Shown: positions 1-26,488, counted from the stretch's first letter. The stretch: 26,488 nt of DNA from a virus (IMGVR_UViG_3300050821_002388:1-26488); one strand, 5' to 3'. A program made the numbers and translations. Notes: generated by a model not told the origin, from the letters alone.

Positions 1-1434
1 CAGTTCTCCGTCGAAGTGTGGAGCACATTCCGCAACTCTGATCAGATCCTCACCGCGATCACGATCTCCGGCGAGGGAGGTCTCGCGATCGCGGATCCAT
101 ACGGAGAACCGCTCGTTTTCGGAGCTCTCGATTCCCGTATCTATCAGGCGACGGTCCCGGGCTCGGGACCCGTGACGATCGCCCAGGATGCCGTCTTTGT
201 TTTCCCCGGGATCACCGGCGCCGATATGGAAGTCACCGGATCCAGGATCACGGTTTTCTCCGTCGCTCCCGACTGGAGCGCGGGGATTGTCGAGTCGATC
301 TCGTTTCTCACCGACGTTTTCAAGGCCTACAGCGACAACGAACAACGCCGCGCGCTTCGACAGATCCCTCGGCGCGGGATGAAATATCGCGCGCTCGCTC
401 TTGACGCGCGAAACGCGGCCGGGATGGAAGCTCTCATTTTCGGATGGATGAATCAACCGTACGCGGTCCCCTGGTGGCAAGATGCGACCGGACTCGCACT
501 CGACACGCCGGCGGGATCGTACTCGATCGCGTGCAATACGGCCGATCGACAGTTCGCGGTCGGAGGGGTCGTCGTCATCCTGATCGACGAGTACACGTTC
601 GAAGCGCTCACGATCGAGACCGTCGAGGTCGATCACGTCACGACGACTTCGGCGACTCAGTTCTCATGGTTGGCTGGACCGTCAACTCTGGTAATGCCGG
701 CGTTTCTCGCGCGACTCGGAACGTCCGTAAAAGTCGATCGACTTTGGTCCGCGGCCGACGGGATCGATCTCGAGTTCACCGGCGAAGCACAGCAACCGGC
801 GCCGACACCGGCGATCACGCTCCCCACGTTCGAAGGTTTCCCCGTTTTCGAAGTTATGCCGAATTGGGCGTCGGATCTCACGCGGACTTATGATCGCTCG
901 CTCGCGATCCTCGATCCGAAGATCGGTCCGATCACGATGATCCCAAAGGGACAGACCTCGATCGCTGGACAAGAGTTCCCCTGGTATCTCGCGAATCACG
1001 CGGCCGTGACGCAGCTCCGCGCGTTTCTCCTGGGACAGTTCGGACAGCTCTCGCCCTTCTGGGTCCCGACCTGGGATCAGGACCTCGTCCTCGCGCGTGA
1101 CGTCGGCGCGACCGATGGGGGGATCCTGATCGCGTCGGAGTTTTACACACAGTTTTTCTTTCCTTCGAAGGCGCGACAGTACCTCGCATTTATCCCGGTC
1201 GACGGAAGCGGGCTCGTGTTTTCGAAAGTGACGGGGTCGGTCAACAATGGCGACGGGACCGAATCGCTCACGCTCGCGAACCCGACCGGGAAACTTTTCC
1301 ACGCGGCCGCGACTCAAATATCGTTTCTCACGCTCGCGCGGCTCGCGAGCGACGACAGTGAGATCGAATGGTTCTCGAACGATCTCGCACAAGCAAAACT
1401 CACGTTTAAGGAAGTACCGACCGAGGTCCCATGA
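1..1434 (+). CDS. Large minor tail protein, 5' end cut by window
   Basis: The reading frame is open from base 1, so the gene most likely begins upstream; a GTG at 16 is possible but has no good ribosome site, and the residues before it (QFSVEV) read smoothly into the protein. It is directly upstream of a phage_BR0599-type gene and a gpJ-like hub gene, which places it in the tail tip region. The sequence looks internally duplicated: a segment near residues 120-160 (RALALDARNAAGMEALIFGW, then a QPYAVPWW stretch) resembles one near residues 330-355 (AAVTQLRAFLLGQFGQLSPF, then WVPTWDQD). Both resemble ring-forming distal tail modules (inference). The stop overlaps the next start as ATGA at 1431-1434. 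No exact family is claimed; a role in the baseplate or tail tip is inferred from context. Confidence 0.7.
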   Translation, partial: QFSVEVWSTFRNSDQILTAITISGEGGLAIADPYGEPLVFGALDSRIYQATVPGSGPVTIAQDAVFVFPGITGADMEVTGSRITVFSVAPDWSAGIVESISFLTDVFKAYSDNEQRRALRQIPRRGMKYRALALDARNAAGMEALIFGWMNQPYAVPWWQDATGLALDTPAGSYSIACNTADRQFAVGGVVVILIDEYTFEALTIETVEVDHVTTTSATQFSWLAGPSTLVMPAFLARLGTSVKVDRLWSAADGIDLEFTGEAQQPAPTPAITLPTFEGFPVFEVMPNWASDLTRTYDRSLAILDPKIGPITMIPKGQTSIAGQEFPWYLANHAAVTQLRAFLLGQFGQLSPFWVPTWDQDLVLARDVGATDGGILIASEFYTQFFFPSKARQYLAFIPVDGSGLVFSKVTGSVNNGDGTESLTLANPTGKLFHAAATQISFLTLARLASDDSEIEWFSNDLAQAKLTFKEVPTEVP

Positions 1435-2228
1435 GCTTCGATTCTCTCGAGAAGTCCCAGGCGTCCGGCACACCGTGGGAGATCTATCGCTTCGTCACGG
1501 CCGGAGAGAACTTTTTCCTCACGTCGGCCGACGTGAATATCTCTTACCTCGGACAAACTTATGTTTCGACGACGCTCCGACGCGATGAGATGACAGAGAA
1601 CGCCGACGTCGACTCCGGCGAGATCAAGGTTTATCTTCCGACCGCGCATCCCCTCGCGCTCCTCTTCCTCCCTGGACTTCCCCCGTCGCCTGTCCAACTC
1701 ACGATCTTCGCCGGTCACTACACCGACACCGAGGTCGTCGTTCTCTATAGCGGGTCGGTCGCCTCGGGAGTTTTCGTCGACGAGTGCGAGCTCACCTGTC
1801 GGTCGGACAAATACATCCTCAACCGAAAGGTCCCGAGAGAGCTCTACCAGGGGCTTTGCAATCACATCTTCGGGGATCCGGGATGCGGGATCAATCTCGC
1901 GACCTACACGACCCCGGGAGTCGTGAGCGCGATCGACTCGACCGGATCTCTGATCACGGTCCCGGCGTTCGCGGGTCTGCCGAACTCGCTGAAGGGCGGC
2001 TATTTCATCCAAGGAAATTCAACTCGCGCGATCCTCAATCAGACCGGCGCGACGATCGTCCTAATGGCTCCGATCGCGGGACTCGTCGTCGGCGCGGCGT
2101 GCTCGGCCGTCGCCGGATGCGCTCACACGTATCCCGCATGCTCGGGATTTAACAACGTTCAAAACTTCGCGGGGTTCGATCTTGTCCCGCTTATCAATCC
2201 CTTCGATGGGACGACGAGTCTCGCCTAA
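1431..2228 (+). CDS. Phage_BR0599-type tail tip protein
   Basis: A 265-residue tail protein. The N-terminal half resembles the DUF2163-like part of this family. The second half has its hallmarks: RELYQGLCNHIFGDPGCGIN near residues 138-157, and the end pattern C-x4-YPACSGFNNVQNFAGFD followed by P-x2-NPF. The paired cysteines probably bind metal, by analogy with the lambda gpL-type tail tip protein that joins the distal tail to the hub (family knowledge). The start ATG at 1431 overlaps the stop of the upstream gene by four bases, and the gpJ-like gene follows after three bases. That order (large tail protein, BR0599 protein, hub) is common in lambdoid and gene-transfer-agent-like tails. Length is usual for the family. 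Confidence 0.85.
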   Translation: MSFDSLEKSQASGTPWEIYRFVTAGENFFLTSADVNISYLGQTYVSTTLRRDEMTENADVDSGEIKVYLPTAHPLALLFLPGLPPSPVQLTIFAGHYTDTEVVVLYSGSVASGVFVDECELTCRSDKYILNRKVPRELYQGLCNHIFGDPGCGINLATYTTPGVVSAIDSTGSLITVPAFAGLPNSLKGGYFIQGNSTRAILNQTGATIVLMAPIAGLVVGAACSAVAGCAHTYPACSGFNNVQNFAGFDLVPLINPFDGTTSLA

Positions 2229-2231
2229 AAA

Positions 2232-4988
2232 ATGTTCATCATTCTCTTACTCATCGTTCTCGTCGCGTCGACCGTCGTCACGATGCTATTGCGGAAAAAC
2301 ACGAACGCGACCGCGTCGTCGCTTGGCGACTTCCAATTCCCGACAGCGACCGAGGGACGCGCGATCCCGGTCGTTTTCGGGACCGTGAAGATCGGCGGAG
2401 GGAATACCGTTTGGTGGGGCGGGCTCTCGAAAATCGCCATCAAAACGAAGTCGGGGCTCTTCTCGAAGACGACCGTCGGGTTCAAATACCTGCTAAGCAT
2501 TCAATACGTTCTGTCGGAAGGTCCGATCGACGAGTTCATCGCGCTCGAGTGTGACGGGAAGCAAGTCCCATTCGCGACCGACGACGGCGGGCGGGATCCG
2601 CGTCACGTGTTCGTCGATCAAAATAATTACTGGGGGGGGACACCGAACGGGCAAGGCGGGCTCCGCGGAAATATATTTTTCTACCACGGGACGCAGACTC
2701 AGAGCAGCGATCCGATCCTTTCCCTACTGCAGACCGCGACCGCGTTCCAGGAAGGCGGGACGCAACCCGTGTTCACTGGAACCGGGAACGGCGGGCTCGC
2801 GTTCGTTTCCGCGGGGCCGTCGGCCGTGAACGAGACGATCACGATCACCGCGACGAGTTCGTTCTACACACACGACAATACAAAACCTTACTACCTCGCG
2901 CGCGAGTTCTCGGTCTGGGGCTCGATCTCCGGAAACATCGGGACGGCGTACGCGAATTACGCGTTCGGCTCGACGACGATCAACTTCACGATCCAGACGG
3001 GCTCGATCGACTTCTCTCCTGGGGATTTCTGGACGATCGGGACGCTCACGGCGCGGGTCTCCCCGAACTATCGCGGGCTCTCGTACGCCGTTTTCGATTC
3101 GTTCTATCTCGGGATTTCGCCGTCGCCGCGGCCGTTTCTTTTCGTCGTTCGGCGATGTCCGGATCCGCTCTCGATGGGACCGACGATCGCGAACATCAAC
3201 GGGGACGCGAACGGCGCGTTCGCGATCTATGACATCTTGACGAATGATCGATACGGGCTCGGGGTCCTCTCCGCTCGGATCGACCCGACCGCGTTCTCTT
3301 ATGCGGCGACGATTCTCGCGACCGAAGGGCTCGGCGTCTCGATGCTCTTCGACTCACAGCAAACGGCCGATCAGCTCATCGGAGAGATCCTCCGTCACAT
3401 CGACGGCGTTCTATATGTCGACATGGCGACGGGACTCTGGACGCTCAAGCTCGCGCGCGCCGATTACGATCCGACGACGCTCCCCGTGATCGACGTCGAC
3501 GACATCGAGAAAATCCAGTTCTCGCGTCCGTCTTGGCTAGAAACCTCGAATCAGGTTTCGCTCACTTACCTCGACCGCGGGCAGGATTTCAACGCGCGAA
3601 CGGTCAAGGCGGAAGACAACGGAAATATCGCAGTCACGGCCGAGGTTCGGACCGAGGCCCTCACTTTCAACGGGCTCTCGAACGGGAGTTCGGCCGCGCT
3701 CGTCGCCGCGCGATGTCTCAAGGGGTTCGTCTATCCGATCGCGAAACTCTCGCTCACCGTCAACCGCGCGGCGTGGAGTTATCGGATCGGCGGAGTGTTC
3801 CGGCTCACCTGGGTCCCGCTCGGGATCGTCGGGCAAGTTTTCCGAATCGCGAATATAGGGTACGGCGAGGTCGCGGCCGGGAAGATCACGATCGACGCGG
3901 TCGAGGACATCTTCGGGCTCAATTACACGGTTTACAATGCTCCCCCTCCGTCGGGATGGATCAATCCGCTCGGAGCTCCGACAGCTCCTCCATTCGAGCG
4001 ACTCGAGGAAGTTCCGCTCGAGCTCGCGCCGACGACCGGGATCTATGCGATGACTCTCGTCGCGCGCGCCGAGGGAACCGATCACGACTATCTCGTTTAT
4101 CAACCCGTGAGCGGAAGCGACACCGAGACGAACGACGTGACGGGGTTCACGCCGATCGGGATGCTCTCGGGGATGTATCGCGCGATGACGCCGGCACTCG
4201 ACGCGACCGGATTCGTTCTCCAGGCGAACGGCGTCGACCTGAATACTCTCGTAAATACCGACTCCGGAGGAGTCGTCCTCGGAACGAACCTCGCGCTCAT
4301 CGATGAGGAGATCGTGTCCTGGACGACCTGGACGCTCAACTCCGACGGGACGATCTCGATCGCCGGCGTCCTCCGCGGAGTAATGGACACGGTCCCGGCC
4401 GATCACGCGTCGGGGGCGATCGTTTGTTTCGTGACGGACGGATGCGGACTCACTCAACAATCGCCGTATGGATCCGATCAAACCGTCCAGGCGAAGATCC
4501 TTCCGGAAAACAACGCGGGGACGTTTCCTCTCACCTCGGCGAGTTATGTCACGGTCACGACGCGCTCGCGAGTTTCGCGACCTTATCCCCCCGGGAATGT
4601 TTGCGAACAGTCGCAACCGTACGGGACGCGATACACGGCGACGCTCGGGCCGGTCACGATCTCCTGGAGCTCGCGGAACCGACTCACGCAAGCGGCCGCG
4701 GGTCTGATGATCCGGCAGGATCAAGGGACGATCGCGGGCGAAGTGGGACAGATTTTCAAGGTCGTCGTCGTGATCGGGGGAGTGACGATCCGAACCGTGA
4801 ACCCCGCGACCTCGCCGTTCACTTACGCCGTCGCCGATCGGATCACGGACGGAGGAGTCGGACCTGTCACGCTCGAGATCTACTCGAACGCGAACACGCT
4901 CGACTCGTTTCAACCCCAGGCCGTGACGTTCGAGATGACGGGATTCGGTCTCGACTTTGGGAACTTTTTCGGAGGAGTGCAAGCATGA
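2232..4988 (+). CDS. gpJ-like tail hub / host-specificity protein
   Basis: A 918-residue protein, the largest complete gene here. It opens with a hydrophobic stretch (residues 1-20, MFIILLLIVLVASTVVTMLL), odd for a virion protein but seen in some tail hub proteins. Then comes a conserved segment, EGRAIPVVFGTVKIGGGNTV (about residues 40-60). Residues about 420-575 fit the Phage-tail_3 (PF13550) hub domain: SRPSWLETSNQVSLTYLDRG, then AARCLKGFVYP, then TIDAVEDIFGLNY with a Tyr-Pro-rich end and SGWI. The C-terminal part has RGVMDTVPADHASG, typical of these hubs, and ends in beta-rich fibronectin-like sequence. It likely forms the tail tip that contacts the host receptor. No Shine-Dalgarno is visible; the start is fixed by close spacing to the upstream gene. 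Confidence 0.8.
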   Translation: MFIILLLIVLVASTVVTMLLRKNTNATASSLGDFQFPTATEGRAIPVVFGTVKIGGGNTVWWGGLSKIAIKTKSGLFSKTTVGFKYLLSIQYVLSEGPIDEFIALECDGKQVPFATDDGGRDPRHVFVDQNNYWGGTPNGQGGLRGNIFFYHGTQTQSSDPILSLLQTATAFQEGGTQPVFTGTGNGGLAFVSAGPSAVNETITITATSSFYTHDNTKPYYLAREFSVWGSISGNIGTAYANYAFGSTTINFTIQTGSIDFSPGDFWTIGTLTARVSPNYRGLSYAVFDSFYLGISPSPRPFLFVVRRCPDPLSMGPTIANINGDANGAFAIYDILTNDRYGLGVLSARIDPTAFSYAATILATEGLGVSMLFDSQQTADQLIGEILRHIDGVLYVDMATGLWTLKLARADYDPTTLPVIDVDDIEKIQFSRPSWLETSNQVSLTYLDRGQDFNARTVKAEDNGNIAVTAEVRTEALTFNGLSNGSSAALVAARCLKGFVYPIAKLSLTVNRAAWSYRIGGVFRLTWVPLGIVGQVFRIANIGYGEVAAGKITIDAVEDIFGLNYTVYNAPPPSGWINPLGAPTAPPFERLEEVPLELAPTTGIYAMTLVARAEGTDHDYLVYQPVSGSDTETNDVTGFTPIGMLSGMYRAMTPALDATGFVLQANGVDLNTLVNTDSGGVVLGTNLALIDEEIVSWTTWTLNSDGTISIAGVLRGVMDTVPADHASGAIVCFVTDGCGLTQQSPYGSDQTVQAKILPENNAGTFPLTSASYVTVTTRSRVSRPYPPGNVCEQSQPYGTRYTATLGPVTISWSSRNRLTQAAAGLMIRQDQGTIAGEVGQIFKVVVVIGGVTIRTVNPATSPFTYAVADRITDGGVGPVTLEIYSNANTLDSFQPQAVTFEMTGFGLDFGNFFGGVQA

Positions 4989-5782
4989 GCGTCACAAACG
5001 GACCTCGCCGCGGACTAATGATCAACGCTCTCACGGGCGACAATTTCGACGCGAACTTTCGAGCGTTTCTCCGCGCGATCGACGCGCTCGTAATGTGTTC
5101 GATCATCAACCGGACGACCTCCGCTCCTCCAGGCTCGCCGGCAAACGGCGACGCGTACATCGTCCAGGCGACCGGGACCGGACTCTGGACCGGACACGAC
5201 AACGCGATCGCAATCTGGACGACCGACAATCCCACGGCCGGCTCCGGCGAGTGGGAGTTCTACGCGGCCGCGGGGGGACTCCTCGTCTACAGCGTCGCCG
5301 ACACGTCGCTATATTTTTGGAACGGTTCGGCGTGGACGGCCGTCGCCGGAGGGGGCGGGGGCGGGACACTCGCCGGCGACAGTGACGTCACGATCACGGG
5401 ACCGACGACCGGACAGATTCTCACCTACAGCGGGACGAAATGGATTAACAGTCCTCCGAGCGGAGCTCCTCCGACCGCGATCGCGGGCGTGAACAATCAA
5501 ACCGCGAATTACGTGCTCGTCCTGGGGGACGCCGGTTTTCTCGTCCGCATGAACCTCGCCGGCGCGAACACTTGCACGATCCCCCCGAATGCGAGCGTCG
5601 CGTTTCCGCTCGAGACCGTCGTCACGATCCGACAAGTCGGAGCGGGGATCTCGACGATCGTCGCCGGCGCGGGAGTCACGATCAATTCGCCGTCGACGCT
5701 CGCGATCGCGCGGCAAAACGGAACGGTTCAACTCGTCCAGGTCGCGACCGACGTGTGGGATCTCATGGGGGACGTCACCTAA
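4985..5782 (+). CDS. DUF2793-containing tail fibre-like protein
   Basis: A 265-residue protein whose ATG at 4985 overlaps the hub gene stop (ATGA). Residues about 30-115 match the DUF2793 pattern: SAPPGSPANGDAYIVQATGT, GHDNAIAIW, then a W-F-Y core and LYFWNGSAWTAV. This domain is known in tail proteins of phages and gene transfer agents, usually just downstream of the hub. A poly-glycine hinge (near residue 123) separates it from a beta-rich C-terminal half containing VTITGPTTGQILTYSGTKW, a pattern common in tail fibres. Likely a side fibre or tip decoration. The hinge DNA is shared with the next gene. The stop overlaps the next start by one base (TAATG). Confidence 0.75.
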   Translation: MSVTNGPRRGLMINALTGDNFDANFRAFLRAIDALVMCSIINRTTSAPPGSPANGDAYIVQATGTGLWTGHDNAIAIWTTDNPTAGSGEWEFYAAAGGLLVYSVADTSLYFWNGSAWTAVAGGGGGGTLAGDSDVTITGPTTGQILTYSGTKWINSPPSGAPPTAIAGVNNQTANYVLVLGDAGFLVRMNLAGANTCTIPPNASVAFPLETVVTIRQVGAGISTIVAGAGVTINSPSTLAIARQNGTVQLVQVATDVWDLMGDVT

Positions 5783-6671: not shown

Positions 6672-6998
6672 ATGGTCTCCGGAGCTGCAGCGGTTCTCGA
6701 GTTCGCGTCGACGGGAGAATACCGGGATGAGCGTCTCTTCATTCTCGAAACTGTGAGGCGTCAAGAAAAAAAGCTCGACGCCACACTTACCGAAGTCGCG
6801 ATCATGCGGGCCGAGAACGTGAAGTTTCGCGTCGACTTAAACGAGGCACACGGCCGCGTCCGCGGGCTGATCAAAGCAAAGGACGATCTCCAAAGGCGAT
6901 TACTCCGGATGGAAGTCCGAGCGGGTTCGATCGCGTTCGTCGCTGGAGTCGTGACGGCCGGCGGGATCGAGCTGATCTTTCGCTTTCTCGTGAAGTGA
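6672..6998 (+). CDS. XhlA-like coiled-coil membrane protein, possible holin partner
   Basis: A 108-residue protein. Residues about 20-82 are a long charged helix with heptad spacing (LETVRRQEKKLDATLTEVAI, then AKDDLQRRLLRMEV), followed by one membrane segment near the end (AGSIAFVAGVVTAGGIELIF) and a short basic tail. A coiled coil plus C-terminal membrane anchor is the layout of the XhlA family found beside phage lysis genes, though this copy is a little longer than usual. The ATG at 6672 has GGAG four bases upstream. It overlaps the endolysin gene start (GTGA at 6995), supporting a joint role in lysis. No sequence motif is decisive. Confidence 0.55.
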   Translation: MVSGAAAVLEFASTGEYRDERLFILETVRRQEKKLDATLTEVAIMRAENVKFRVDLNEAHGRVRGLIKAKDDLQRRLLRMEVRAGSIAFVAGVVTAGGIELIFRFLVK

Positions 6999-7576
6999 CG
7001 GACTCAATCAAACCCGAAACGATCTCCGCGGTCCTGGGTCCCTTCGGTCCCCTCGAGAACGTCCGCACGAATTGGCCGCTCATCGAAAGCGCGCTCGAAA
7101 CTCACGGGATCAACTCACTCGCGACAAGGATCGCGGCGATCGCGACGGTCGCCGTCGAGACCGGAAGGTTCTCGCCGGTCCGCGAGCGCGGGGGACCCGC
7201 TTACTTCACAAAACATTACGAAGGCCGCGCGGACCTGGGGAACAATCAACAGGGAGACGGCGCGAAGTTTTTCGGCCGCGGATACATCCAGATTACGGGG
7301 CGAGGGAACTATTCGGAGTATGGCCGCGAGATCGGCGTCGACCTGATCGCGAATCCCGACCTCGCGCTCGATCCCGCGATCGGCGCGGAAGTGCTCGCTC
7401 TCTTTTTTCGGACAAAAAACATCCCCAGGCTCGCGGACGCGATGAACTGGGAAGCGGTTCGTCGACGCGTGAACGGCGGTCTCGAGGGATGGGACCGTTT
7501 TTCCGCGTACGTCGGCGAGCTTTCGAAAGCTCTGCAGCTCGTCGAGTCTACGGTCGGCGGAGATGTTCAAATCTAA
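6995..7576 (+). CDS. Glycoside hydrolase family 19 endolysin
   Basis: A 193-residue GH19 (chitinase/lysozyme-like) domain with no other domain. In phages, GH19 enzymes cut the glycan strands of peptidoglycan. Landmarks: VAVETGRFSPV with the likely catalytic Glu55, a second acid at Glu76 in TKHYEGR, and GRGYIQITGRGNYSEYG at about 94-110, the family's substrate-cleft signature. The GTG start overlaps the preceding stop (GTGA). There is no N-terminal signal peptide or cell-wall binding domain, so export would depend on a holin; the neighbouring small membrane proteins are candidates. Length is typical for a single-domain phage GH19 endolysin. Confidence 0.9.
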   Translation: MTDSIKPETISAVLGPFGPLENVRTNWPLIESALETHGINSLATRIAAIATVAVETGRFSPVRERGGPAYFTKHYEGRADLGNNQQGDGAKFFGRGYIQITGRGNYSEYGREIGVDLIANPDLALDPAIGAEVLALFFRTKNIPRLADAMNWEAVRRRVNGGLEGWDRFSAYVGELSKALQLVESTVGGDVQI

Positions 7577-9242: not shown

Positions 9243-9857
9243 CTGTCATCCAAGCTCACAGAAAAACTTCTCAGCGCAGCGGTCGAGTCCTTCGCCGCGG
9301 ACGGATTCCACGGCTCGACGACGAAGCTCATCTCGGATCGCGCCGGCTGTACCGAAGGATCCCTCTTTCGACTATTCGGTTCAAAGGAGAAGCTCTTCGG
9401 GGCGGCAGTCCTTCGAGCGTTCCAAACTGGCCAGATGCCGAACGAGGAGCTCGCTCGCATCCTCGACAATGACGACAACTTTGAGCGCGCGCTCCGTCGA
9501 GGGATGCTCGAGTTTTTCGATCGCCTCGGCGAGAACTATCTCCGGATCACGATGTTCTCGTGTCTCGAGCGGCCGGAGCTCGTTCGAGCGCATTTGATGG
9601 ACTCGTCCTTCGCGAAGGTCGTCGCTCACACGATCGAGCGCGAGATCTACCGCGGGAACGTCCGCGACGACGTCGATCCTCACACGGCCGCGCTCGCGCT
9701 CACGATGGCCCTCTGGCAGTTCGCATTCGTCTCGCCGATCGCGACGACGGAGTTCAAATCGAAGGAAGCAAGGCGCGGGGCTGTGAAAAACTTTGTGGAA
9801 ATCTGGTTTCACGGGATGCGAAAGAACCCTCCAAAGACACCCCGAAAAAAGGACTAA
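9243..9857 (+). CDS. TetR-family transcriptional regulator, non-standard start
   Basis: The frame encodes 204 residues, the usual TetR size. The N-terminal helix-turn-helix is classic: SSKLTEKLLSAAVESFAADG, F-H-G-S-T-T, ISDRAGCTEGSLFRLFGSKE, KLF. The ligand-binding part follows, with ALALTMALWQFAF near residues 142-154. The frame is open from 9210 to 9857 but holds no ATG, GTG or TTG before the internal ATG at 9435, which would delete the DNA-binding domain. CTG at 9243 fits the homology. Alternatively GTG 9236, in another frame, would join perfectly if the C5 tract at 9239-9243 had one C fewer. GGAGG lies at 9218-9222. It probably controls nearby lysogeny genes; the ligand is unknown. Confidence 0.75.
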   Translation: MSSKLTEKLLSAAVESFAADGFHGSTTKLISDRAGCTEGSLFRLFGSKEKLFGAAVLRAFQTGQMPNEELARILDNDDNFERALRRGMLEFFDRLGENYLRITMFSCLERPELVRAHLMDSSFAKVVAHTIEREIYRGNVRDDVDPHTAALALTMALWQFAFVSPIATTEFKSKEARRGAVKNFVEIWFHGMRKNPPKTPRKKD

Positions 9858-10300: not shown

Positions 10301-11971
10301 GTGAAAAAAGCAATCGAACTGATCCGCGTGTCCACGATTCAGCAAGCGGGGGACGATCGTTTCTCGATTCCCGCTCAACGAACTATCAACCGAAAGACGG
10401 CCGCGGCGTACGGGCTCACGATCACGAAGACGATCGAGATCTCCGACGTCGGCGGATCCGACGTTCTCGCCTCTCCGGAGATCCAGGAGCTCGTCCGACT
10501 GATCCAGGATCGAGAGATCCACGGGGTCATCGCGCGCGAGTTTTCTCGACTCATGCGGCCGGAAAACCTCGGCGACTTCTACCTGCTGCAGAACTTCGCC
10601 GACTCGAAAACCTTGCTCTACCTTCCCGACGGCGCGATCGACTTCTCGACGAAGTCCGGGAAGATGATCGGAGGGATCCGCGCGCTCTTCGCTGGATACG
10701 AGAAAACGGAGTTTCTCGAGAAGTCCCAGGGAGCGCGCGAGGAGATGCGGAAGCTCGGGAAGTGTCCCTCGTCGCCGCTCACATGGCCGACGGCCGTCGC
10801 GTACGACAAGGTCACCGGCTGGAAGTACCTCCCCGAGATCACGAAGGTCCGGAAGTGTTTCGAGCTCTTCCTCTCCGGCGTGAATAGCTGGAACGAGATC
10901 GAACGCGCGACCGGGATCCTAAAGTGGAACGTCCGCGGGATCCTCTCGAATCCCATCTACAACGGCTGGCGAGTGTACGACAAAAAGCGAGACCCAGGTC
11001 GCGAGGCTCGCTTCGCCCAGGTCGACGGTCGACAGGCCGATCGGCGTAAAATGTCCCGCACCGACGAGGATGTCATCCGAGTAAAAGTGATCGAGGATCC
11101 GATCGTCTCCGATGCCGAGTTCGCACGCGTCCAGGAGATGCTCGCCGCGAAGCTCGATCATCACTTACGCGCGAAGTCGTCCGGCGATTCGCGGTTCATT
11201 TATCACGGTTTTCTAACATGCTCGGCGTGTGGGAAAACGGAGTACACGCGTTCTTACACGTCTCGGAAGTCGGGGCTCGTCTCCGACTACTACGTTTGTT
11301 CGGCGAAGGGATCCTTCATCTCGAACAAGCGGAACCCGATCCCGTTCGCGGACCGATGCGCGACGCCGTATATGCGAAGGGACAAGCTCGAGACTCATCT
11401 CGACGGGATTTTCGCGACTCGACTCACCGACCGCGGTTTTCTCCGGGAGCTCGTCGAGGAGTTCGACGCTCGAGCGAAGGGCAAGGGGAGCGAGAAAAAG
11501 ATCGCTCGACTCCAGGCTCAACTCGACCGGCTCGAAGAGAAGCGACAGCGGATCCTCGACGGCTATTTCGAGGGAGTGATCTCTCGCGTCGATCGGGACG
11601 CTCGAGTCCTATCTGTCGATCGCGATCACGCGATCGCCGCCGGCGCGCTCGAGGACGAGGTCCCGACGCATGCCGGACTCGAGGTCAAGCAACTCGTCGC
11701 GCTCTTCCGGCCGCTCTTCACTTGGAAAACTTTGCATTCCGACTCGAAGCGTCGGATCCTGTTCTCGCTCGCTCCGGAGATCAAGGTCGCGAACTACCTC
11801 GTCGCCGGGATGAGTCTTCTCGTTCCCCCAAGCGGAGAACGAAAACCCCCGGTCTCTGATCGGGGGAGTGTCAACTCGTCGGAGGGTATCGGCTATTATG
11901 AGAGCCGTCGCAGAATGGCTCCTCTTATAGCTGAAACCTCTTCGCGTGTCTACATCCCCTTAAACCTCTAG
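10301..11971 (+). CDS. Large serine recombinase, phage integrase
   Basis: A 556-residue site-specific recombinase. The N-terminal resolvase domain has IRVST with the nucleophile Ser11, and SRLMRP with Arg83/Arg86 in the position of the family's active-site arginines. The middle 'recombinase' domain contains NVRGILSNPIYNGWRVYDKK (about 207-227). A zinc ribbon follows: CSAC near residues 307-310, YYVC near 332 and RC near 353. A coiled coil (KKIARLQAQLDRLEEKRQRI) lies near 405-425, as expected for attP/attB synapsis control. Length is normal for large serine integrases. GTG 10301 is chosen from the resolvase N-terminus; the ribosome site is poor. It inserts and, with a directionality factor, excises the phage genome. 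Confidence 0.92.
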   Translation: MKKAIELIRVSTIQQAGDDRFSIPAQRTINRKTAAAYGLTITKTIEISDVGGSDVLASPEIQELVRLIQDREIHGVIAREFSRLMRPENLGDFYLLQNFADSKTLLYLPDGAIDFSTKSGKMIGGIRALFAGYEKTEFLEKSQGAREEMRKLGKCPSSPLTWPTAVAYDKVTGWKYLPEITKVRKCFELFLSGVNSWNEIERATGILKWNVRGILSNPIYNGWRVYDKKRDPGREARFAQVDGRQADRRKMSRTDEDVIRVKVIEDPIVSDAEFARVQEMLAAKLDHHLRAKSSGDSRFIYHGFLTCSACGKTEYTRSYTSRKSGLVSDYYVCSAKGSFISNKRNPIPFADRCATPYMRRDKLETHLDGIFATRLTDRGFLRELVEEFDARAKGKGSEKKIARLQAQLDRLEEKRQRILDGYFEGVISRVDRDARVLSVDRDHAIAAGALEDEVPTHAGLEVKQLVALFRPLFTWKTLHSDSKRRILFSLAPEIKVANYLVAGMSLLVPPSGERKPPVSDRGSVNSSEGIGYYESRRRMAPLIAETSSRVYIPLNL

Positions 11972-13487: not shown

Positions 13488-14254
13488 GCGTCGAACGTCG
13501 TCGTCGCTGCGGGTTCCGCAAAGTCGGCGGGCTCTACCTCGTGTCGAGTGGATCCGGGATGGCATGCGGCCGTCTTCCGATCCCGCTCGGCGTGTGTCCC
13601 GTGTGCTCGAGCGGGATCAAACAGACGCGCGGCTGGACCTGGGTCGACGTCCCCGGACTCGTCAAGAATCTTCCCTGTAAGGCGACGCCGGATTATTGCG
13701 CGTCGTGTCCGCTCGCGCTCCCCGAGCTCGTCGGCCGCGCGGGTCTCCTCTGGATCGGCGCGCAATTCTACCGGACGCCGGCGGAGTTCCAGGCGGAAGC
13801 GGAAGAAATGGGAATGTCGCGCCGGATCTCCGCGGTCCCGCGCGACTTTAAGCTCGGCGAGACCTGGGTCCTGTTCGCTCATCCGAGGGCGATCCCGTGT
13901 GATCAGTGTTCCCCGACGCTCGCTCGACTCTTCGCGTCGGAGTCGGCCGACGTTTCAAAACTCTCGGCCGAGGTCCTCGAGAAAACCGAAAAGTGTGAGA
14001 AGTGTCACGGCTCGAAGTGGATCGCCGGCGCGTTCCGATTGTTCCGGCCGGAACGGATCGAGAAGATCGTGACGCTCTCGCAATCCCAGGACGCGGCCGC
14101 GATGAAAGAGCTCGCCGACAAAGGGATCACTCCGGTAATCGTCCCGGACGACGATCCCGATCACAAGGGGAGCGTATACGACCGGACCGACGACGAAGAG
14201 CCGATCATCGACGGGAAGGCTCGCGCGGCCGGAGAAAGCGAGGCGACAGCATGA
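13484..14254 (+). CDS. Cysteine-rich zinc-binding phage protein
   Basis: A 256-residue protein with many paired cysteines: a first Cys in RRCGF, MACGRLP, CPVCSSG, then C-x-A-TPDYCASCP, a middle CDQCSP, and CEKCHGSKW. It probably holds two or more zinc ribbons. GIKQTRGWTWVDVPGL and the FRLFRPERIEKIV segment look conserved-domain-like, and similar proteins occur next to phage recombination nucleases (from memory, not searched). The last 50 residues are acidic and probably disordered. Both ends are ATGA overlaps, and the YqaJ-type exonuclease follows directly, so a role in DNA recombination or replication is plausible but unproven. Confidence 0.7.
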   Translation: MSVERRRRCGFRKVGGLYLVSSGSGMACGRLPIPLGVCPVCSSGIKQTRGWTWVDVPGLVKNLPCKATPDYCASCPLALPELVGRAGLLWIGAQFYRTPAEFQAEAEEMGMSRRISAVPRDFKLGETWVLFAHPRAIPCDQCSPTLARLFASESADVSKLSAEVLEKTEKCEKCHGSKWIAGAFRLFRPERIEKIVTLSQSQDAAAMKELADKGITPVIVPDDDPDHKGSVYDRTDDEEPIIDGKARAAGESEATA

Positions 14255-15294
14255 GCGCGCGCGCACCTTGGCTAGAAGCTCGTCGCCTGGGACTCGGCGG
14301 ATCCGACTCGCCGGCCGTCCTGGGTCTCGACCCCTGGAGATCCGGACTCGACATCTGGAGATCGAAAGTCGAACCCCTAAAACCGACCGAGGACGAGGTT
14401 TTTCTCTTCGAACTCGGACATCTCCTCGAGCCCGTGATCGCGGGACTGTACTCAAAACAGACCTCGCGCGAGCTTTTCGTTCCCGATCCGGAGATCGTCC
14501 AGCATCTCGAGTTTCCCGAGATCCTCGGATCTCCGGATCGTCTCGCTCCCCAGGACGGCCGAGTCGTCGAACTCAAAAGCGAGCATCAATTCGCGGACAA
14601 GTTCGGCGATCCAGGAAGCGATCAGGTCCCCGATCACTACATCGTTCAGGCCGCGCACTATATGGCCGTCGCGAACCTCGATCGATGCGACGTCGCGGTC
14701 CTTCACGGCGGATATAAGTTCGCGATCTATCAGCTCCGGCGCGACCTGGACCTCGAGCGATCGATGATCGAGCAGCTCCGCGACTGGTGGCATGCGTACG
14801 TCGTGAAGAAAGTCGAACCGCCGCTCGACGCGTCGGAGTCCTGGGGAAACTACCTCGCGACGAAATATCCCTTCAACCGCGGACCGATGATCAAGGTCGA
14901 CGAGAACTCGGACCCCGCGATCATGCGTCACGTCTTCAACGTCCTCAATTTTTCCGACGTGAAGAAACAAACCGACAAGCGGATCGAGGAAGCGAAAAAC
15001 GCGATCAAGGCTTTTCTCGCCGAAAACGACGGGCTCGTCGGTCCCTGGGGAAAAATCACTTGGAGACTCTGCAAGGATTCGACCGCGACCGTGATCAATT
15101 TCGAGAAGCTCCTCCATCACGTCGCGAAAGCGTATTCGATCCCGGAGATCGAGATCACCGAGCTCCGAGAAAAGTACATGGAAAGCGTGATCACCAAAAG
15201 AGGCGGACGCCGGTTCGTCGCGAAGCGCGCGAAAGAACTCGCCGAGGAAATGGTTCCGGAAGCTCAGGAGGTTTTATTCGATGTCAGCAACTAG
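14251..15294 (+). CDS. YqaJ-type (lambda exonuclease-like) recombination nuclease
   Basis: A 347-residue nuclease of the PD-(D/E)XK fold. Such enzymes digest one strand of double-stranded DNA ends to feed an annealing protein. Landmarks: LGLGGSDSPAVLGLDPW (about 13-29), GHLLEPVIAGLY with Glu60, GSPDRLAP with Asp96, the catalytic VVELKS (Glu107, Lys109), and YIVQAAHYMAV with Gln133. The start is ATG 14251, overlapping the upstream stop; an open frame runs further upstream but belongs to the overlapped gene. The C-terminal 150 residues are extended, helical and charged compared with minimal YqaJ domains. It overlaps the next gene by 14 bases, the usual pairing with an annealing protein. Confidence 0.88.
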   Translation: MSARAPWLEARRLGLGGSDSPAVLGLDPWRSGLDIWRSKVEPLKPTEDEVFLFELGHLLEPVIAGLYSKQTSRELFVPDPEIVQHLEFPEILGSPDRLAPQDGRVVELKSEHQFADKFGDPGSDQVPDHYIVQAAHYMAVANLDRCDVAVLHGGYKFAIYQLRRDLDLERSMIEQLRDWWHAYVVKKVEPPLDASESWGNYLATKYPFNRGPMIKVDENSDPAIMRHVFNVLNFSDVKKQTDKRIEEAKNAIKAFLAENDGLVGPWGKITWRLCKDSTATVINFEKLLHHVAKAYSIPEIEITELREKYMESVITKRGGRRFVAKRAKELAEEMVPEAQEVLFDVSN

Positions 15295-16850: not shown

Positions 16851-17747
16851 ATGCAAACGAGGATCCGCACGATAAAACCCGAGTTCTACACACACACATC
16901 CCTATTCGACCTCGAGCAAAAAACACGACTACCGATCCGAGTCGCTTTCTCGGGACTCTGGACAGTTTGCGATCGCGACGGCCGCTTTAAGTGGGACCCG
17001 CGCGAACTCAAAGTTCACGTCCTCCCGTATGACGACCTCGACTTTTCCCAGGTCCTCGACGCGCTTCGAGCCGACGGGTTCGTCGTCCAGTACGAGGTCG
17101 CCGGCAGGGTCTACGGCTACATCCCCTCATGGCGAAATCATCAAGTTTTGAACGCGCGCGAGCGAGCGTCGAGGCTCCCGTCTCCAGGTCCCGCGGAAGT
17201 CGTCGAAATTACGACTCCTAGTCTTTTCAGCAACTTGACGCGTGAACCGGAAGTGTGTGCGGGAACTGGAACTGGAACTGGAACTGGAACGGAACGGGAA
17301 CTACCCCCCCCAACCCCCCACGCGGCCGTGGTGACGGAAATCAAAACCACGGAAAATCAAAAAGTCGCCGCGAAAGTCGAAGCGAAAAAACCTCCGGTTC
17401 CACTCATGCTCGTACACGACGACGGCGTCCCCCAGGGACTAAGCGAGGTCGAATACGCGCGTCGCTTCCTGGGAGATGTCGGTCTCCCCGAGAAGGGGAA
17501 CGTCTTCGTCGCGGCCGACGCGATCAAAGCTCTCGCGAAATCCTGCGGGCTCTCGCTCGTGAACTCATTCGTCCAGATCCGCGCGAGAGCTTTCGACGAT
17601 CGCGATCACGGCGTCGCGGTCGATCATCTCTGGATCCTCAACGGCCGATACAACCAACCGAAACCCAGGAGTAAAAGCGATGATTACGCCGATCGACTCG
17701 ACCGAGAGCTCGCGATCCTCCGACGAGCAAACGGAGCGAGTGCTTAG
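16851..17747 (+). CDS. Phage replication initiator, DnaD/O-like
   Basis: A 298-residue replication protein. The N-terminal winged-helix block is a common phage pattern: RTIKPEFYTH, PIRVAFSGLWTVCDRDGRFK, WDPRELKVHVLPYD, VLDALRADGFVVQYEV and YIPSWRNHQ (together about 6-105). A Gly-Thr repeat linker follows, encoded by GGAACT hexamers, then a Pro-rich stretch and a helical C-terminal domain (about 195-270, AADAIKALAKSCGLSLVNSF). Such proteins bind the origin and recruit the helicase loader. AGGAG-like sequence before ATG 16851 supports the start. It overlaps the next gene by 68 bases. The repeats make this gene a candidate for carrying the origin, as in lambda O. Confidence 0.75.
   Translation: MQTRIRTIKPEFYTHTSLFDLEQKTRLPIRVAFSGLWTVCDRDGRFKWDPRELKVHVLPYDDLDFSQVLDALRADGFVVQYEVAGRVYGYIPSWRNHQVLNARERASRLPSPGPAEVVEITTPSLFSNLTREPEVCAGTGTGTGTGTERELPPPTPHAAVVTEIKTTENQKVAAKVEAKKPPVPLMLVHDDGVPQGLSEVEYARRFLGDVGLPEKGNVFVAADAIKALAKSCGLSLVNSFVQIRARAFDDRDHGVAVDHLWILNGRYNQPKPRSKSDDYADRLDRELAILRRANGASA
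17262..17302 (+). repeat. GGAACT hexamer repeats in initiator gene
   Basis: Four perfect GGAACT copies (17262-17285) pass into degenerate copies up to 17302, encoding Gly-Thr. A C8 run and a relatively A-rich stretch (about 17335-17395) follow. The arrangement of repeats beside A-rich DNA inside an initiator gene resembles the lambda O origin, though the units are shorter. Confidence 0.85.
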
Positions 17748-18635: not shown

Positions 18636-18853
18636 TCGGAAAGTACACGCTCCGAGTCACAGGCTCACAAAAACTCGCCCTCGTCGACGCGCTCCTCGAA
18701 CTCCTCACGTCGACGAGCGCGACGCAACGCTTCATCGATTGCTCGGTCGATCCCCCGGTCGAAACGAACGTGACGGAACTCCTCCGGATCGTCACCGATG
18801 CACCGTTCGAACCCGTTCCAGACGTCGACAAACCGAAAGCGAGGACACAGTGA
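18632..18853 (+). CDS. Small early protein of unknown function
   Basis: A 73-residue unknown with a short alpha/beta pattern (GKYTLRVTGSQKLALVDALL, then ELLTSTSATQRFIDCSVDPP) and a Pro-rich tail. Coupled by ATGA upstream and GTGA downstream, directly before the ATPase gene. Confidence 0.6.
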   Translation: MIGKYTLRVTGSQKLALVDALLELLTSTSATQRFIDCSVDPPVETNVTELLRIVTDAPFEPVPDVDKPKARTQ

Positions 18854-20142
18854 AGATTCTCAGATTCGAAGCGGCTAACATCAAAAAGCTCAAGGTCGTC
18901 GAGATCCGTCCCGACGGTCACATTGTCGAGATCACCGGACCGAACGGAAGCGGGAAGTCGAGCGTCCTCGATGCGATCTTCTACGCGCTCGCCGGCGCGA
19001 AGGACATCCCGTCACAACCGATTCGCCGCGGACAGCTCAAAGCACACGTTACGCTCGAGCTCGGCGACGTCACAGTGACGCGCAAGTTCTCGAAGGACAC
19101 CGGGACCTCGCTCGTCGCGGAAGCGAAAAACGGCGCGCGCTTCCCGACTCCGCAACGTCTCCTCGATGAGATGCTCGGAAAACTTACGTTCGATCCGCTC
19201 GAGTTTTCTCGGATGGACCCGAAAAAGCAGCTCGAGCAAATACGCTCGATGGTCAAGCTCGACATCGACCTGGACAAACTCGACGCCGACAATCGGAACG
19301 ACTTCGAAGCGCGGACCGAACTCAATCGCGAGATCAAGTCGCTCGATGCTCAGGGATTCGGGTTCACGTTTCCCGACGACACTCCCGACGAGGAGATCGA
19401 CATCTCGAAACTCGCCCAGGAGCTCGAGACGGCCGGGACCCAGAACCTCCGGATCGATCGCGTGAAGCGCGAGCGCGAGCAGCTCGAGACCTCGATTCAG
19501 GAGCAAACCGATCGCGCGCTCGAATGTCGCCGCGAGGCGGAGGACTTCCGACAGAAAGCGATCGACGCGGACGCGATGGCCGAGCAACTCATCGCGGACA
19601 ATCTCGAGGCGAGATCGCGACTCGAGGCGATCGTGATCCCGGATCCCGTCGACACGGCCGAACTCCGCGAGCTCATCAACTCCGCGCGACTGATCAATGC
19701 CAGCGTCGCCAAGAAAAAACAGCAAGCGGCGATTTTTGCCCAGGCTAAGAAAAAGCGCGACGCCGCGGACGCTTTGAAGGAAGCGATGTCCGCGCGACTC
19801 CATGCAAAGAACACGGCGATCGCCGCGGCGAAGATGCCGATCGAGGGACTGTCGTTCGGCGAGGGAGAAGTCGTTTACGACGGACTCCCGTTCAATCAAG
19901 CGAGCTCGGCCGAACAGCTCCGCGTATCCGTCGCGGTCGCGATGGCCGCGAATCCAAAGCTCAAAGTTCTCCGGATCCAGGACGGCTCACTCCTCGACGA
20001 GACGAGTATGAAACTCCTCGCGAAGATGGCCGCGGCCGAGGACTATCAAATCTGGATCGAGCGCGTCGACACGAGCGGGAAAGTCGGCGTCGTCATGGAA
20101 GACGGAAGCGTGAGGGAAGCGAAAGAGAAAGCGACCGCATGA
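18850..20142 (+). CDS. SbcC/RecF-like coiled-coil ATPase
   Basis: A 430-residue SMC-family-like ATPase. The N-terminal half-domain has ITGPNGSGKSSVLDAIFYAL with Walker A at residues 30-37. A long coiled-coil centre follows (about 185-330, with runs such as REQLETSIQEQTDRALECRR). The C-terminal half-domain has FNQASSAEQLRVSVAVAMA, in place of the ABC signature, then LKVLRIQDGSLLDETSMKLL as the Walker B/D-loop region. Compared with SbcC the coil is much shorter, as in phage AAA ATPases placed with recombination genes. No SbcD-type nuclease is visible nearby; the VRR-NUC or YqaJ enzymes may be functional partners (inference). GTG 18850 overlaps the upstream stop. Confidence 0.85.
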   Translation: MKILRFEAANIKKLKVVEIRPDGHIVEITGPNGSGKSSVLDAIFYALAGAKDIPSQPIRRGQLKAHVTLELGDVTVTRKFSKDTGTSLVAEAKNGARFPTPQRLLDEMLGKLTFDPLEFSRMDPKKQLEQIRSMVKLDIDLDKLDADNRNDFEARTELNREIKSLDAQGFGFTFPDDTPDEEIDISKLAQELETAGTQNLRIDRVKREREQLETSIQEQTDRALECRREAEDFRQKAIDADAMAEQLIADNLEARSRLEAIVIPDPVDTAELRELINSARLINASVAKKKQQAAIFAQAKKKRDAADALKEAMSARLHAKNTAIAAAKMPIEGLSFGEGEVVYDGLPFNQASSAEQLRVSVAVAMAANPKLKVLRIQDGSLLDETSMKLLAKMAAAEDYQIWIERVDTSGKVGVVMEDGSVREAKEKATA

Positions 20143-23314: not shown

Positions 23315-23541
23315 TGTATATAGCGCACATCACACGACGCAAGTCGTTACCATCAAAGGGCTTTGGACCGGCGCGTCCGGACGCTAAAGATGGGAGGATC
23401 AGTGTCCCACTTTGCTTTGGGTCCTCCCCCACACCCCCCCCGCGCGCGGGTGACGGCGACCGCGAGCTTTTTCCAGCGGGAGATCCTGGCCTTTGCGGTT
23501 CGCTTCGCTGGAGTTTCCCACTTTCACACGAGGAGAGGTTC
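23315..23541 (+). other. Structured 227-base intergenic region
   Basis: The gap holds a 12-bp palindrome GCGTCCGGACGC (23373-23384), a 7-bp stem GGGAGGA (23392-23398) with TCCTCCC (23422-23428), an inner stem CCCA/TGGG, a second palindrome CCCGCGCGCGGG (23439-23450), and CCCACTTT twice (23406-23413 and near 23517-23524). It might hold an ncRNA, a terminator or a packaging/recombination site. The frame continuous with the next gene (from ATG 23311) looks unlike protein. Confidence 0.45.
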
Positions 23542-23970
23542 ATGAACAGCACATTGCAAACGAAGATCACAAACGAGATCGAGAGCTCGATCGGCGCTCC
23601 GGATTACACCGAGAGCGCGCGACAGGCTTACAACGCGTACGGACGAACGACGAATTTCAAAAACTATCAGGGGCTCGCGATGCCGGCATGGGAGAACCTC
23701 CCGGACCCGATCCGCGTCGCCTGGGTCGCGGCCGTGAAGCAAGCGGTCACGTCGTTCGTCGAAGGCCTCGCCGGAGATCTCGGATGTTTTCTCCGCGCGT
23801 TCTCGAGGGGCGAGCCGACGTTCACGCTCATCGCGCGGGACCCGACGTCGTTCGCGACGATCCTCTTCTGGATCCAGCAGAACCCAGGGGCGCCCTCGTC
23901 GAAACTTCACGAGGCGTTCATGAAGGCCGAACGCTGTCGCGAGTGGCCGGAAAAGAAAGCGGCCGACTAA
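23542..23970 (+). CDS. Conserved-looking phage protein of unknown function
   Basis: A 142-residue protein with two recognisable blocks: NAYGRTTNFKNYQGLAMPAW then ENLPDPIRVAWVAAVKQAV, and later EPTFTLIARDPTSFATILFW with FMKAERCREWPE. The second block resembles a short domain seen in several phage proteins (from memory). ATG 23542 is chosen for its ribosome site (GAGGAGAGG at 23530-23538); ATG 23311 is in frame but would add 77 unlikely residues across palindromic DNA. Function unknown. Confidence 0.65.
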   Translation: MNSTLQTKITNEIESSIGAPDYTESARQAYNAYGRTTNFKNYQGLAMPAWENLPDPIRVAWVAAVKQAVTSFVEGLAGDLGCFLRAFSRGEPTFTLIARDPTSFATILFWIQQNPGAPSSKLHEAFMKAERCREWPEKKAAD

Positions 23971-24037
23971 TACCGGGGGGCTCGTGATAATTTCGTTTCT
24001 ATCAGGACGCGCGCGGTTCCGGCCGAAAGGGTCGAAG

Positions 24038-24388
24038 ATGGAGCTCCCGAAATGGGCGTTCAAAACTCAGAGCCGAATAAAAGCTGATGGCTCGCTCGAC
24101 TTGGTCATCGGATTACGACCCCTCGGCCGACTATATCTCGTCGCGCGCGCGCTCCTCGAGATCGTCCGGACGACGACGATCACGCTCACGATCGAGATCC
24201 AGGAGCGACGGCCGATCGTCACCCACGACGGCGAGCCCGTCGAACCGGATCTCACCTACACGCTCCGAGACGACGAAATCCTCGAGCTCGTGAAGCGCGT
24301 CCCGATCCCGCGGATCCCGCTCCTGATCGATTACGCGCGAGATCGACAGCTCTTCGGATCCCCACTTCCCGATCGGCGCGAAGCGTGA
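24038..24388 (+). CDS. Small protein before the small terminase
   Basis: A 116-residue alpha/beta protein (DGSLDLVIGLRPLGRLYLVA, then RALLEIVRTTTITLTIEIQE). ATG 24038 has AAAGGG seven bases upstream; GTG 23984 is an in-frame alternative, with GGGGGG nearby. It ends in GTGA at 24385-24388, coupled to the small terminase. Function unknown; a packaging helper is possible by position only. Confidence 0.55.
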   Translation: MELPKWAFKTQSRIKADGSLDLVIGLRPLGRLYLVARALLEIVRTTTITLTIEIQERRPIVTHDGEPVEPDLTYTLRDDEILELVKRVPIPRIPLLIDYARDRQLFGSPLPDRREA

Positions 24389-25020
24389 AGAAAGATCGCT
24401 CCCGGGAAAAACCGCGAATTACCAGAAAAAAACAACCACATAAGACGAGCGCGAAAAACCGCGAATTACCAAAGCGCTCGAGCTCGCCGGCGCCGGCTCC
24501 GAAAAAGCGAATCAGTCGACACGTCCCGACCTGGATCGGGAAGATCGACGAATGCGCGCGCGAGCTCAACCTGGGAAACCGTCGGGTTCAAATCCTCGCG
24601 AACGAGGGACTCCCGCGGGCGGAGCGCGGCGTGTACGACATCGTCGGATGTTTTCGATGGTATGTCCGATACCTCCAGCGGAAGCTCGTCGCGCGCGCTC
24701 TCCCCGAAGACGGCGACGGAGACGGCGGAGGACCGGCGACCTCGTCGTCGGCGACGCGTCACAAGATGCTCTCGATCGAGGCGGAGCTCAAACAGATCGA
24801 ACTCGCCGAGAAGCGTGAGCAAGTCGTCTCGATCGAGAAGGTACAGAAGGACCTCGAGGCGATCGTCGTCGAGATCAGGACGCGGATCCTCGCGCTTCCC
24901 CCCAGGCTCGCGGCCGAGGTCCTCGGCGAAACCGATCTCGCGGTCTCGCAAGTGAAGATCGATCGATCGCTGAAAGGGGCTCTCGATGTCCTTTCGCAAT
25001 TCGACCCCGACGTCAAATAA
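24385..25020 (+). CDS. Small terminase subunit, Nu1-like
   Basis: A 211-residue packaging protein. A basic N-terminal extension (about 1-45) leads into a winged-helix-like domain: WIGKIDECARELNLGNRRVQ, ILANEGLPRAERGVYDIV, then CFRWYVRYLQRKL. An acidic/Gly linker (EDGDGDGGG) joins it to a long helical assembly domain (IEAELKQIELAEKREQVVSI). It is the expected partner of the GpA-type large terminase, recognising the phage DNA and stimulating the motor. GTG 24385 overlaps the upstream stop; the large subunit starts 35 bases before its end. The DNA of its N-terminus carries a 19-bp repeat in two reading frames. Confidence 0.8.
   Translation: MKKDRSREKPRITRKKQPHKTSAKNRELPKRSSSPAPAPKKRISRHVPTWIGKIDECARELNLGNRRVQILANEGLPRAERGVYDIVGCFRWYVRYLQRKLVARALPEDGDGDGGGPATSSSATRHKMLSIEAELKQIELAEKREQVVSIEKVQKDLEAIVVEIRTRILALPPRLAAEVLGETDLAVSQVKIDRSLKGALDVLSQFDPDVK
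24406..24471 (+). repeat. 19-bp direct repeat in terS, candidate packaging site
   Basis: GAAAAACCGCGAATTACCA occurs at 24406-24424 and 24453-24471, 47 bases apart start to start. Since 47 is not a multiple of three, the copies encode different peptides (EKPRIT and KNRELP), so the DNA rather than the protein is repeated. Suggests sites bound by the small terminase, like lambda cosB R-sites. Confidence 0.8.
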
Positions 25021-26488
25021 GCTCCCGGAGTCGTTCCGACTCGAGGACGACCCGCGGGCCCTCGAGGTCTATCGAAAGCGGCGACAGAACGCGATCGCGC
25101 TTTTCGCTCCGCCGGAGGACATCACAATCTCCGCGTGGGCGGAGAAACACCGCGTAATGCCGAAAGGGACGACCGATCGGCCGGGACCGTTTCACGCGGA
25201 AAAGTTCCAGGTCGAAATGATGAACGCGGTCCTCGATCCGCTCGTTCATGAGGTCGTGATCAAGAAGTCGACTCAGATCGGCTACTCGGACGCCGTGATC
25301 AATAACATCGTCGGCTATTTCATGGACATCGATCCGAAACCGATCATGCTCGTCCAGCCAACAATCGACAATGCGAAAGACTACGGGAAAAAGCGGATCA
25401 CGCCGATGATCGAGTCGACCGCGGTTCTCAAAATCAAAGTGAGCGATCGCGTCTCGAGACAAGCGGGAAACACTCTCTCGCTCAAAGAGTTCCCCGGCGG
25501 GTTTTTGAAACTCACCGGCGCGAACGCCGGCTCGGGACTCCGCTCGGATCCGGTCCCGATCGTCCTGTTCGATGAGATCGACGGTTATCCCCTGGACGTC
25601 GAAGGCGAAGGCGATCCGATCATGATCGGGACACGCCGGACCGACGCGTTCGCGAATTTCAAAATCGTAAAGGGCTCGACGCCGGCGAAACCGCGGGGGA
25701 TCTCCTCGATCGAGAAAGCGTTCGAGAAAAGCGATCAACGAATGTTTTTTGTCCCGTGTCCCGAGTGCGGTTTCATGCAAGCTCTTCTCTGGAGGGACGA
25801 GGACGCCGGCGAGAACTCGCCGCGGGACTTTCATCTCACGTACTCGGTCGACGCCGACGGACAGGTCGTCGCGAGTTCCGTCTTCTACGTTTGCTCGGGA
25901 TGTAAGGCGAAGATCCCCGAGTACCGAAAACAATCTATGCTCGACGCGGGGACCTGGGTCCCGAAGTTCCCCGACCGGCCGATCGTCGGGTTCTATATAA
26001 ACGCGCTTTACTCTCCCTGGCGACAGAACTGGAAAGCGCTCGCTCAAGAGTGGCATGAAGCGAACGAAGAGAAAAATCCCGAGAAGATGAAAGCGTTCAT
26101 CAATCTCCGACTCGGCGAGACCTGGGAAGAGCAAGGCGACTCGCTCGAACCGCACATGCTTCGAAAGCGATGCGAGGATTACGCCGCGGACGTCCCGGCC
26201 GGCGTCGCGATCCTCACGGCCGCGGTCGACGTCCAGGGGGATCGACTCGAGGTCGTCGTCAAGGGATGGGGAGCGAAAGAGGAATCCTGGCTAATCGCGT
26301 ATCAGCAATTTTTTGGGGACCCCGGTCAAGGCGACGTGTGGAACGACGTCGACGAGTTTCTCCTCACCGACTTCGAGCATGCATCCGGCCGGAAGATGCG
26401 CGTTTATTGCGGGATGGTCGACTCCGGAGGTCACAACTCCGACGACGTTTACAGATTCGTGAAAGCGCGACAGCGACGCCGGATCTAC
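24986..26488 (+). CDS. Large terminase subunit, GpA family, 3' truncated by window
   Basis: 501 residues are visible and the gene runs off the end without a stop. The ATPase part has a Walker A-like KKSTQIGYSD (Lys94) and Walker B IVLFDEIDG (Asp196, Glu197). A zinc-ribbon-like insert follows: CPECGFMQ and CSGCKAKI. The nuclease part begins with AILTAAVDVQGDRLEVVVKG, holding a likely catalytic Asp. This matches GpA-family (PF05876) terminases, which cut and translocate DNA into the head and are best known from cos phages such as lambda. ATG 24986, with AAGGGG about eight bases upstream, overlaps the small subunit gene by 35 bases. A long antisense frame over 25013-26155 is a shadow. Confidence 0.9.
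   Translation, partial: MSFRNSTPTSNKLPESFRLEDDPRALEVYRKRRQNAIALFAPPEDITISAWAEKHRVMPKGTTDRPGPFHAEKFQVEMMNAVLDPLVHEVVIKKSTQIGYSDAVINNIVGYFMDIDPKPIMLVQPTIDNAKDYGKKRITPMIESTAVLKIKVSDRVSRQAGNTLSLKEFPGGFLKLTGANAGSGLRSDPVPIVLFDEIDGYPLDVEGEGDPIMIGTRRTDAFANFKIVKGSTPAKPRGISSIEKAFEKSDQRMFFVPCPECGFMQALLWRDEDAGENSPRDFHLTYSVDADGQVVASSVFYVCSGCKAKIPEYRKQSMLDAGTWVPKFPDRPIVGFYINALYSPWRQNWKALAQEWHEANEEKNPEKMKAFINLRLGETWEEQGDSLEPHMLRKRCEDYAADVPAGVAILTAAVDVQGDRLEVVVKGWGAKEESWLIAYQQFFGDPGQGDVWNDVDEFLLTDFEHASGRKMRVYCGMVDSGGHNSDDVYRFVKARQRRRIY

Follow-up and report, generated by a model that had tools for sequence, protein, structure and literature searches.

Excess of GATC in a partial tailed-phage genome: probably in the main a lineage-wide compositional signature, with a modest residual specific to GATC

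The virus contig IMGVR_UViG_3300050821_002388, a partial genome of 26,488 bases that was analysed whole and is here called the window, is crowded with the tetranucleotide GATC, and this raises the question of whether the word itself is being kept or whether its abundance follows from the way in which the lineage composes its DNA. The original prediction, made from the letters of the contig, described an extreme excess apparently driven by synonymous codon choice, thought it unusual for a phage, and named a host genome signature, methylation-based marking or a recognition sequence as possible causes.

Judged by the protein families matched, the window belongs to a tailed phage, with all assigned genes on the plus strand. 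A tail assembly protein whose 5' end is cut by the contig (1–1434; phrog_1082, E 7e-118) precedes a tail/baseplate hub protein (1431–2228; phrog_778, PF09931), a large tail protein (2232–4988; phrog_1101, E 3e-199, PF13550) and a DUF2793 structural/tail fibre protein (4982–5782; PF10983, start estimated). Further along are predicted a GH19-type endolysin (6995–7576; phrog_181, PF00182), a large serine integrase (10301–11971; phrog_95, PF00239, PF07508), a RecE/YqaJ-like exonuclease (14251–15294; phrog_434, PF09588, start estimated), a replication initiation protein (16851–17747; phrog_16167), a RecF/SMC-like AAA ATPase (18844–20142; phrog_1499, PF13476, start estimated) and, cut by the contig end, a terminase large subunit of the GpA type (24986–26488; phrog_15, PF05876, PF20454). 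The integrase makes it probable that this is a temperate phage, able to integrate. The matches to PF09931 (phiJL001 Gp84), DUF2793 and Rcc01698_C point to Alphaproteobacteria, as a suggestion from families and not a host assignment, and soil as the source habitat is something that we infer, as no search output states it. Searches by similarity gave no host: megablast of the window against phage records returned zero matches, the terminase found only matches of 34–40% identity in the genome collection and at best 43% among 385 Alphaproteobacteria, and the window's proteins matched phages and plasmids of many hosts, always below 60% identity.

Counted over positions 1–26488, GATC occurs 469 times (17.7/kb, one per 56 bases) where about 95 sites would be expected from base composition (the real GC content is 59.9%), an excess of 4.96x. 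CGATCG accounts for 113 of these sites and at 4.27/kb is the densest hexamer, against 1.59/kb for GGATCC, which by hand arithmetic stands at about 4.9x its base-frequency expectation. Positions 1–660, for which 17 sites had been reported, hold 18, and the high density described for most coding regions is found throughout, at 9–30 sites per full kb; the peak of 30 falls in the first kb, which is therefore untypical of the window. An open reading frame at 9435–9857, with a weak match below cut-off to a TetR C-terminal domain, lies in a stretch of lower density. The sites are evenly spread, with a variance/mean of 1.03 in 500-base bins and a widest gap between adjacent sites of 551 bases (16971–17522). 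An origin- or packaging-like array was considered and ruled out, as even the densest 250 bases (24145–24394, 13 sites) are matched by shuffles that preserve codon context (P=0.81). The word is also frequent, at about 15/kb, in 2.9 kb outside gene calls, which is provisionally non-coding and may include small genes that were missed.

The window's relatives, sought with its terminase large subunit as query, are 64–94% identical in that protein, some come from the same metagenome, and they span 0 to 18 or more GATC/kb. Near relatives (77–94% identical over the matched part) are all alike at about 14–20/kb. A record with a terminase at 69% (G014) has 16.7/kb and other more distant relatives have 5–13. 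The terminase tree holds few well-supported forks, and no number of changes in GATC density is drawn from it.

As more of the sequence is retained in the null model, the excess shrinks. Shuffling synonymous codons gene by gene, so that the encoded protein and its codon usage stayed unchanged, gave 251±10 coding sites against 427 observed (1.70x, z 17.4), so that a codon-shuffled model does not reproduce the count. When the bases flanking each codon were kept as well, 354±9 sites were expected and 1.20x remained (z 8.3); among 16 palindromes GATC then had the top z but not the top ratio. Accounting for dinucleotide content left 1.55x, and the roughly fivefold excess falls this far because GA/TC is extremely frequent (1.66x) and CA/TG rare (0.59x); CG stands at 1.61 and TA at 0.40. 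Alongside this extreme dinucleotide bias, the main leucine codon of the window is CTC. Other palindromes are enriched too, which goes part of the way towards the refutation that the original prediction had named for itself: TCGA reaches 4.63x and CGCG 2.57x base composition, and both exceed the codon shuffle, by 1.34x and 1.50x, ratios below that of GATC. In the pooled near clade, counted strand-symmetrically, GATC stands at 1.59x its dinucleotide expectation and ranks 7th of 136 words, and under a maximal-order model it ranks 29th of 136. Against the junction-preserving shuffle, GATC in this clade is raised whichever codon phase it occupies (1.12, 1.52 and 1.30; z 10–19), TCGA and CGCG lie near 1.0 with no or scarcely any excess, and GCTC has an overall residual of 1.31, like that of GATC.

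The codon preferences on which the original prediction was built are present. Valine before ATC is written GTG 17 times, GTC 4 times and GTA twice (roughly 17 GTG and 5 GTC had been claimed), while GTC makes up 359 of 559 valine codons overall; the commonest codon after CTG is ATC, with 12 cases; and GAT is used before C in 101 of 137 instances, against 57 of 301 elsewhere. The choice of third base does vary with the codon that follows, with G favoured before NTC and T before C. The GAT preference is largely explained because T before C is general, its frequency being 0.74 for Asp and 0.72 for His/Tyr/Cys, with 0.53 for Asn. Given codon box and next base, third-position G in the near clade is raised before ATC (1.31), CTC (1.49), GTC (1.25) and TTC (1.51), and also before GCC (1.71), but not before ATG (0.91). 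Of the claim that codons are actively chosen for GATC, the excess and the dependence on the next codon stand, together with a smaller residual specific to the word, but most of the pattern belongs to the wider T-before-C and G-before-NTC rules.

Gain and loss of third-position G were estimated pairwise from 384 ortholog pairs in 16 records, with a bootstrap over families and a ranking of contexts with at least 300 observations; an initial turnover count of the window against its relatives, in which the same sites were repeated across relatives, was set aside for this version. The rate at which G was gained before ATC among these near relatives was 1.26 (0.86–1.54), the highest of the ranked contexts, against 0.38 (0.30–0.43) before other A-codons, and loss was 0.19 (0.15–0.21) against 0.26 (0.21–0.29). 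Compared with codons of the same first base, gain was also higher before CTC (0.38 against 0.14) and TTC (0.52 against 0.19). High gain with slightly lower loss before ATC could be due to selection or to context-dependent mutation, which look alike in this test.

In this phage family selection shows more sharply in the opposite direction, in a relative free of GATC. This record, G020 (terminase 66% identical; L101:1-20000 and L102:1-10092, the same record as L025), has no GATC in 30,092 bases where 137 would be expected, no third-position G before ATC against 42 expected, and GAT before C in 0 of 86 cases. CGATCG is nearly absent from G017 (L098-L100; 1 against 10 expected) and G024 (L103-L105; 2 against 32). 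Avoidance of the sites cut by a host's Type II systems is described for phages in PMC6286503, with a weaker effect in temperate ones, and these three relatives fit that description, the window being the reverse. That some relatives are depleted of GATC or CGATCG, seemingly in a way aimed at these words, most likely reflects restriction avoidance, in which the words would have been lost as an escape from restriction enzymes. GCGCGC, CAGCTG and GTCGAC are nearly missing from G024 too, as though it had to face more than one such enzyme, and TGATCA is avoided in the GATC-rich G007 (L093-L095; 0 against 18 expected), G021 (L114-L116; 2 against 14) and G014 (L096-L097; 1 against 12). Third-position G before ATC, CTC, GTC and TTC stands at 0.78, 1.18, 1.35 and 1.93 in G011, at 0.71, 1.49, 1.50 and 1.26 in G017, and at 0, 1.36, 1.60 and 0.74 in G020, so that in all three G before ATC lies under other NTC contexts. 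In G013 (1.08, 1.26, 1.10, 1.39) and G024 (0.99, 1.02, 1.55, 0.98) the enrichment before ATC is merely missing, as are those before CTC and TTC in G024. The TTC preference of G020 is gone as well (17 against 23, z -1.4, small numbers); its change is not confined to ATC, and its total loss of GATC stands alone.

Methylation-based marking, one of the causes first suggested, finds no positive support. A D12 (Dam-like) enzyme was detected, by motif scan and Pfam, in the GATC-free G020 only (L101:14336-15358), and this predicted protein has distant similarity to DpnM (2dpm, E 1.7e-10), below the cut-off of the dam model. The PF02086 (D12) profile matched nothing in 22 of 23 relatives, all GATC-rich records included, and a motif scan of the window contig, itself a partial genome, gave no DPPY-type motif. 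Dam marking by a phage-encoded enzyme was therefore rejected, as no such gene was found in the window or its GATC-rich relatives; no evidence here supports marking of this type, though a host-side system could still act. G011 and G013 are predicted to encode CcrM-like N6/N4 methyltransferases that carry a ParB-like domain at the N-terminus (L106:3100-4464 and L111:4687-6027). G011 also has a C5 enzyme, and G023 gave a motif match of the N6/N4 type.

Chromosomes of Alphaproteobacteria provide a comparison at the level of the class, not of the phage's own host. CGATCG reaches at most 2.9/kb in 385 genomes, all under the window's 4.27/kb, and in the denser of these it mostly stands far above its reversed control. 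We compared 83 chromosome segments, mostly chosen for high CGATCG and with masked bases handled, in which the GATC excess over base composition spans 1.37x–4.78x and the codon-shuffle ratio 0.94–1.55; in the window's clade that ratio is 1.51–1.85, mostly above the sampled maximum. The complete chromosome closest in style, G161, has 13.3 GATC/kb, an excess of 4.78x, GA at 1.50 and CA at 0.75, and as the nearest sampled segment it is still at a dinucleotide distance of 0.132 from the window. The GA and CA biases of the window's clade fall outside the range of all 83 segments. G before ATC is favoured 1.34x in pooled unselected segments, and 1.32–1.45x in the window (1.32x), in G005, G007 and G021, and in the other near relatives taken together; G before CTC is at 1.00 in unselected chromosomes, unlike the preference of the clade. 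This kind of signature is normal in Alphaproteobacteria, and its degree in the window's clade is beyond the sample. None of 23 chromosomes gave a match to a Dam-family model above the cut-off, and weaker matches came from 3 of 13 CGATCG-rich ones and 1 of 10 others.

Comparable excesses have been described elsewhere. Subcluster B3 mycobacteriophages carry GATC at about 4x expectation genome-wide, far above their sister subclusters (PMC4841201), and that report reads this as genome-wide amelioration and gives no cause. They and the window are alike in an excess of at least about 4x that is genome-wide, and in a GGATCC excess, the marked hexamer of B3 at more than 4x, although in the window CGATCG is denser; the phages differ, and presumably their hosts. 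The view that such enrichment is unusual for a phage is tempered by these GATC-rich mycobacteriophages, already in print. HIP1 of cyanobacteria is the octamer GCGATCGC, which goes with GATC and CGATCG methyltransferases (PMC4390886). What it shares with the window is a genome-wide excess of a palindrome centred on GATC/CGATCG; an HIP1-type identity is ruled out, as GCGATCGC makes up only 19 of the 469 sites, and the GATC-rich phages gave no match in a search for the D12 family. Oligonucleotide usage of phages and hosts has been compared, and used to separate lytic from temperate phages, in PMC2917420; here, such similarity is gauged against the class Alphaproteobacteria only, not the actual host.

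We consider it likely that the GATC excess is mainly a lineage-wide compositional signature, probably acquired in and shared with a probably Alphaproteobacterial soil host that permits integration, and of the causes first named a host or lineage signature fits best. Dinucleotide bias, codon usage and junction bases supply most of the excess and rules wider than GATC the bulk of the codon-level pattern; frequent gain of G before ATC renews the smaller residual, which may be the GATC/CGATCG preference of Alphaproteobacteria themselves and not a phage function. Preferences of like kind in chromosomes of the class, and the strong excess of G161, agree with this, and a host with the full signature may be supposed. 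Against it stand the GA and CA bias of the clade and the CGATCG density of the window, beyond all those sampled, the clade's codon-shuffle ratio, mostly beyond them, the dinucleotide distance that still separates the window from its nearest segment, the choice of most compared chromosomes for high CGATCG, terminase matches of at most 40% identity in the genome collection, and the neutral G before CTC in unselected chromosomes. A modest GATC-specific residual exists besides the signature. That all of this is chance or a counting error, from an extreme local sample such as the rich first kb or from base composition, may be dismissed, being refuted by the codon shuffle and by the recurrence of the excess in every close relative.

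Selection on GATC itself, read by a protein in host self-marking methylation, as a repair or replication motif, or as a packaging or segregation mark, would explain the three-phase residual not or barely seen in TCGA and CGCG and the top gain rate with its disjoint intervals. We think it unlikely: the GCTC residual and the raised gain before CTC and TTC show a force not limited to one palindrome, the sites are unclustered, D12 enzymes are lacking in the GATC-rich records and the Dam family in most CGATCG-rich chromosomes, and context-dependent mutation would yield the same pattern. It is also doubtful that translational codon-pair preference and codon usage made GATC a by-product with no DNA-level component. 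Such preferences occur across domains of life, as PMC2585594 reports, and codon-context rules account for most of the pattern, but neither the residual in the phase xGA-TCx nor the density outside gene calls is what one would expect from a rule of translation. A dense mark kept for function and recognised by some protein of host or phage, with sister phages gaining or purging GATC according to the methylation or restriction system of their hosts, strikes us as quite improbable.

Bias in dinucleotides and codon context can account for most of a large 4-mer excess, and such counts therefore call for layered null models. By itself the window strongly illustrates a lineage signature in a phage, and its family, extending from 0 to 18 or more GATC/kb, offers a natural comparison for the forces that raise or lower a recognition word.
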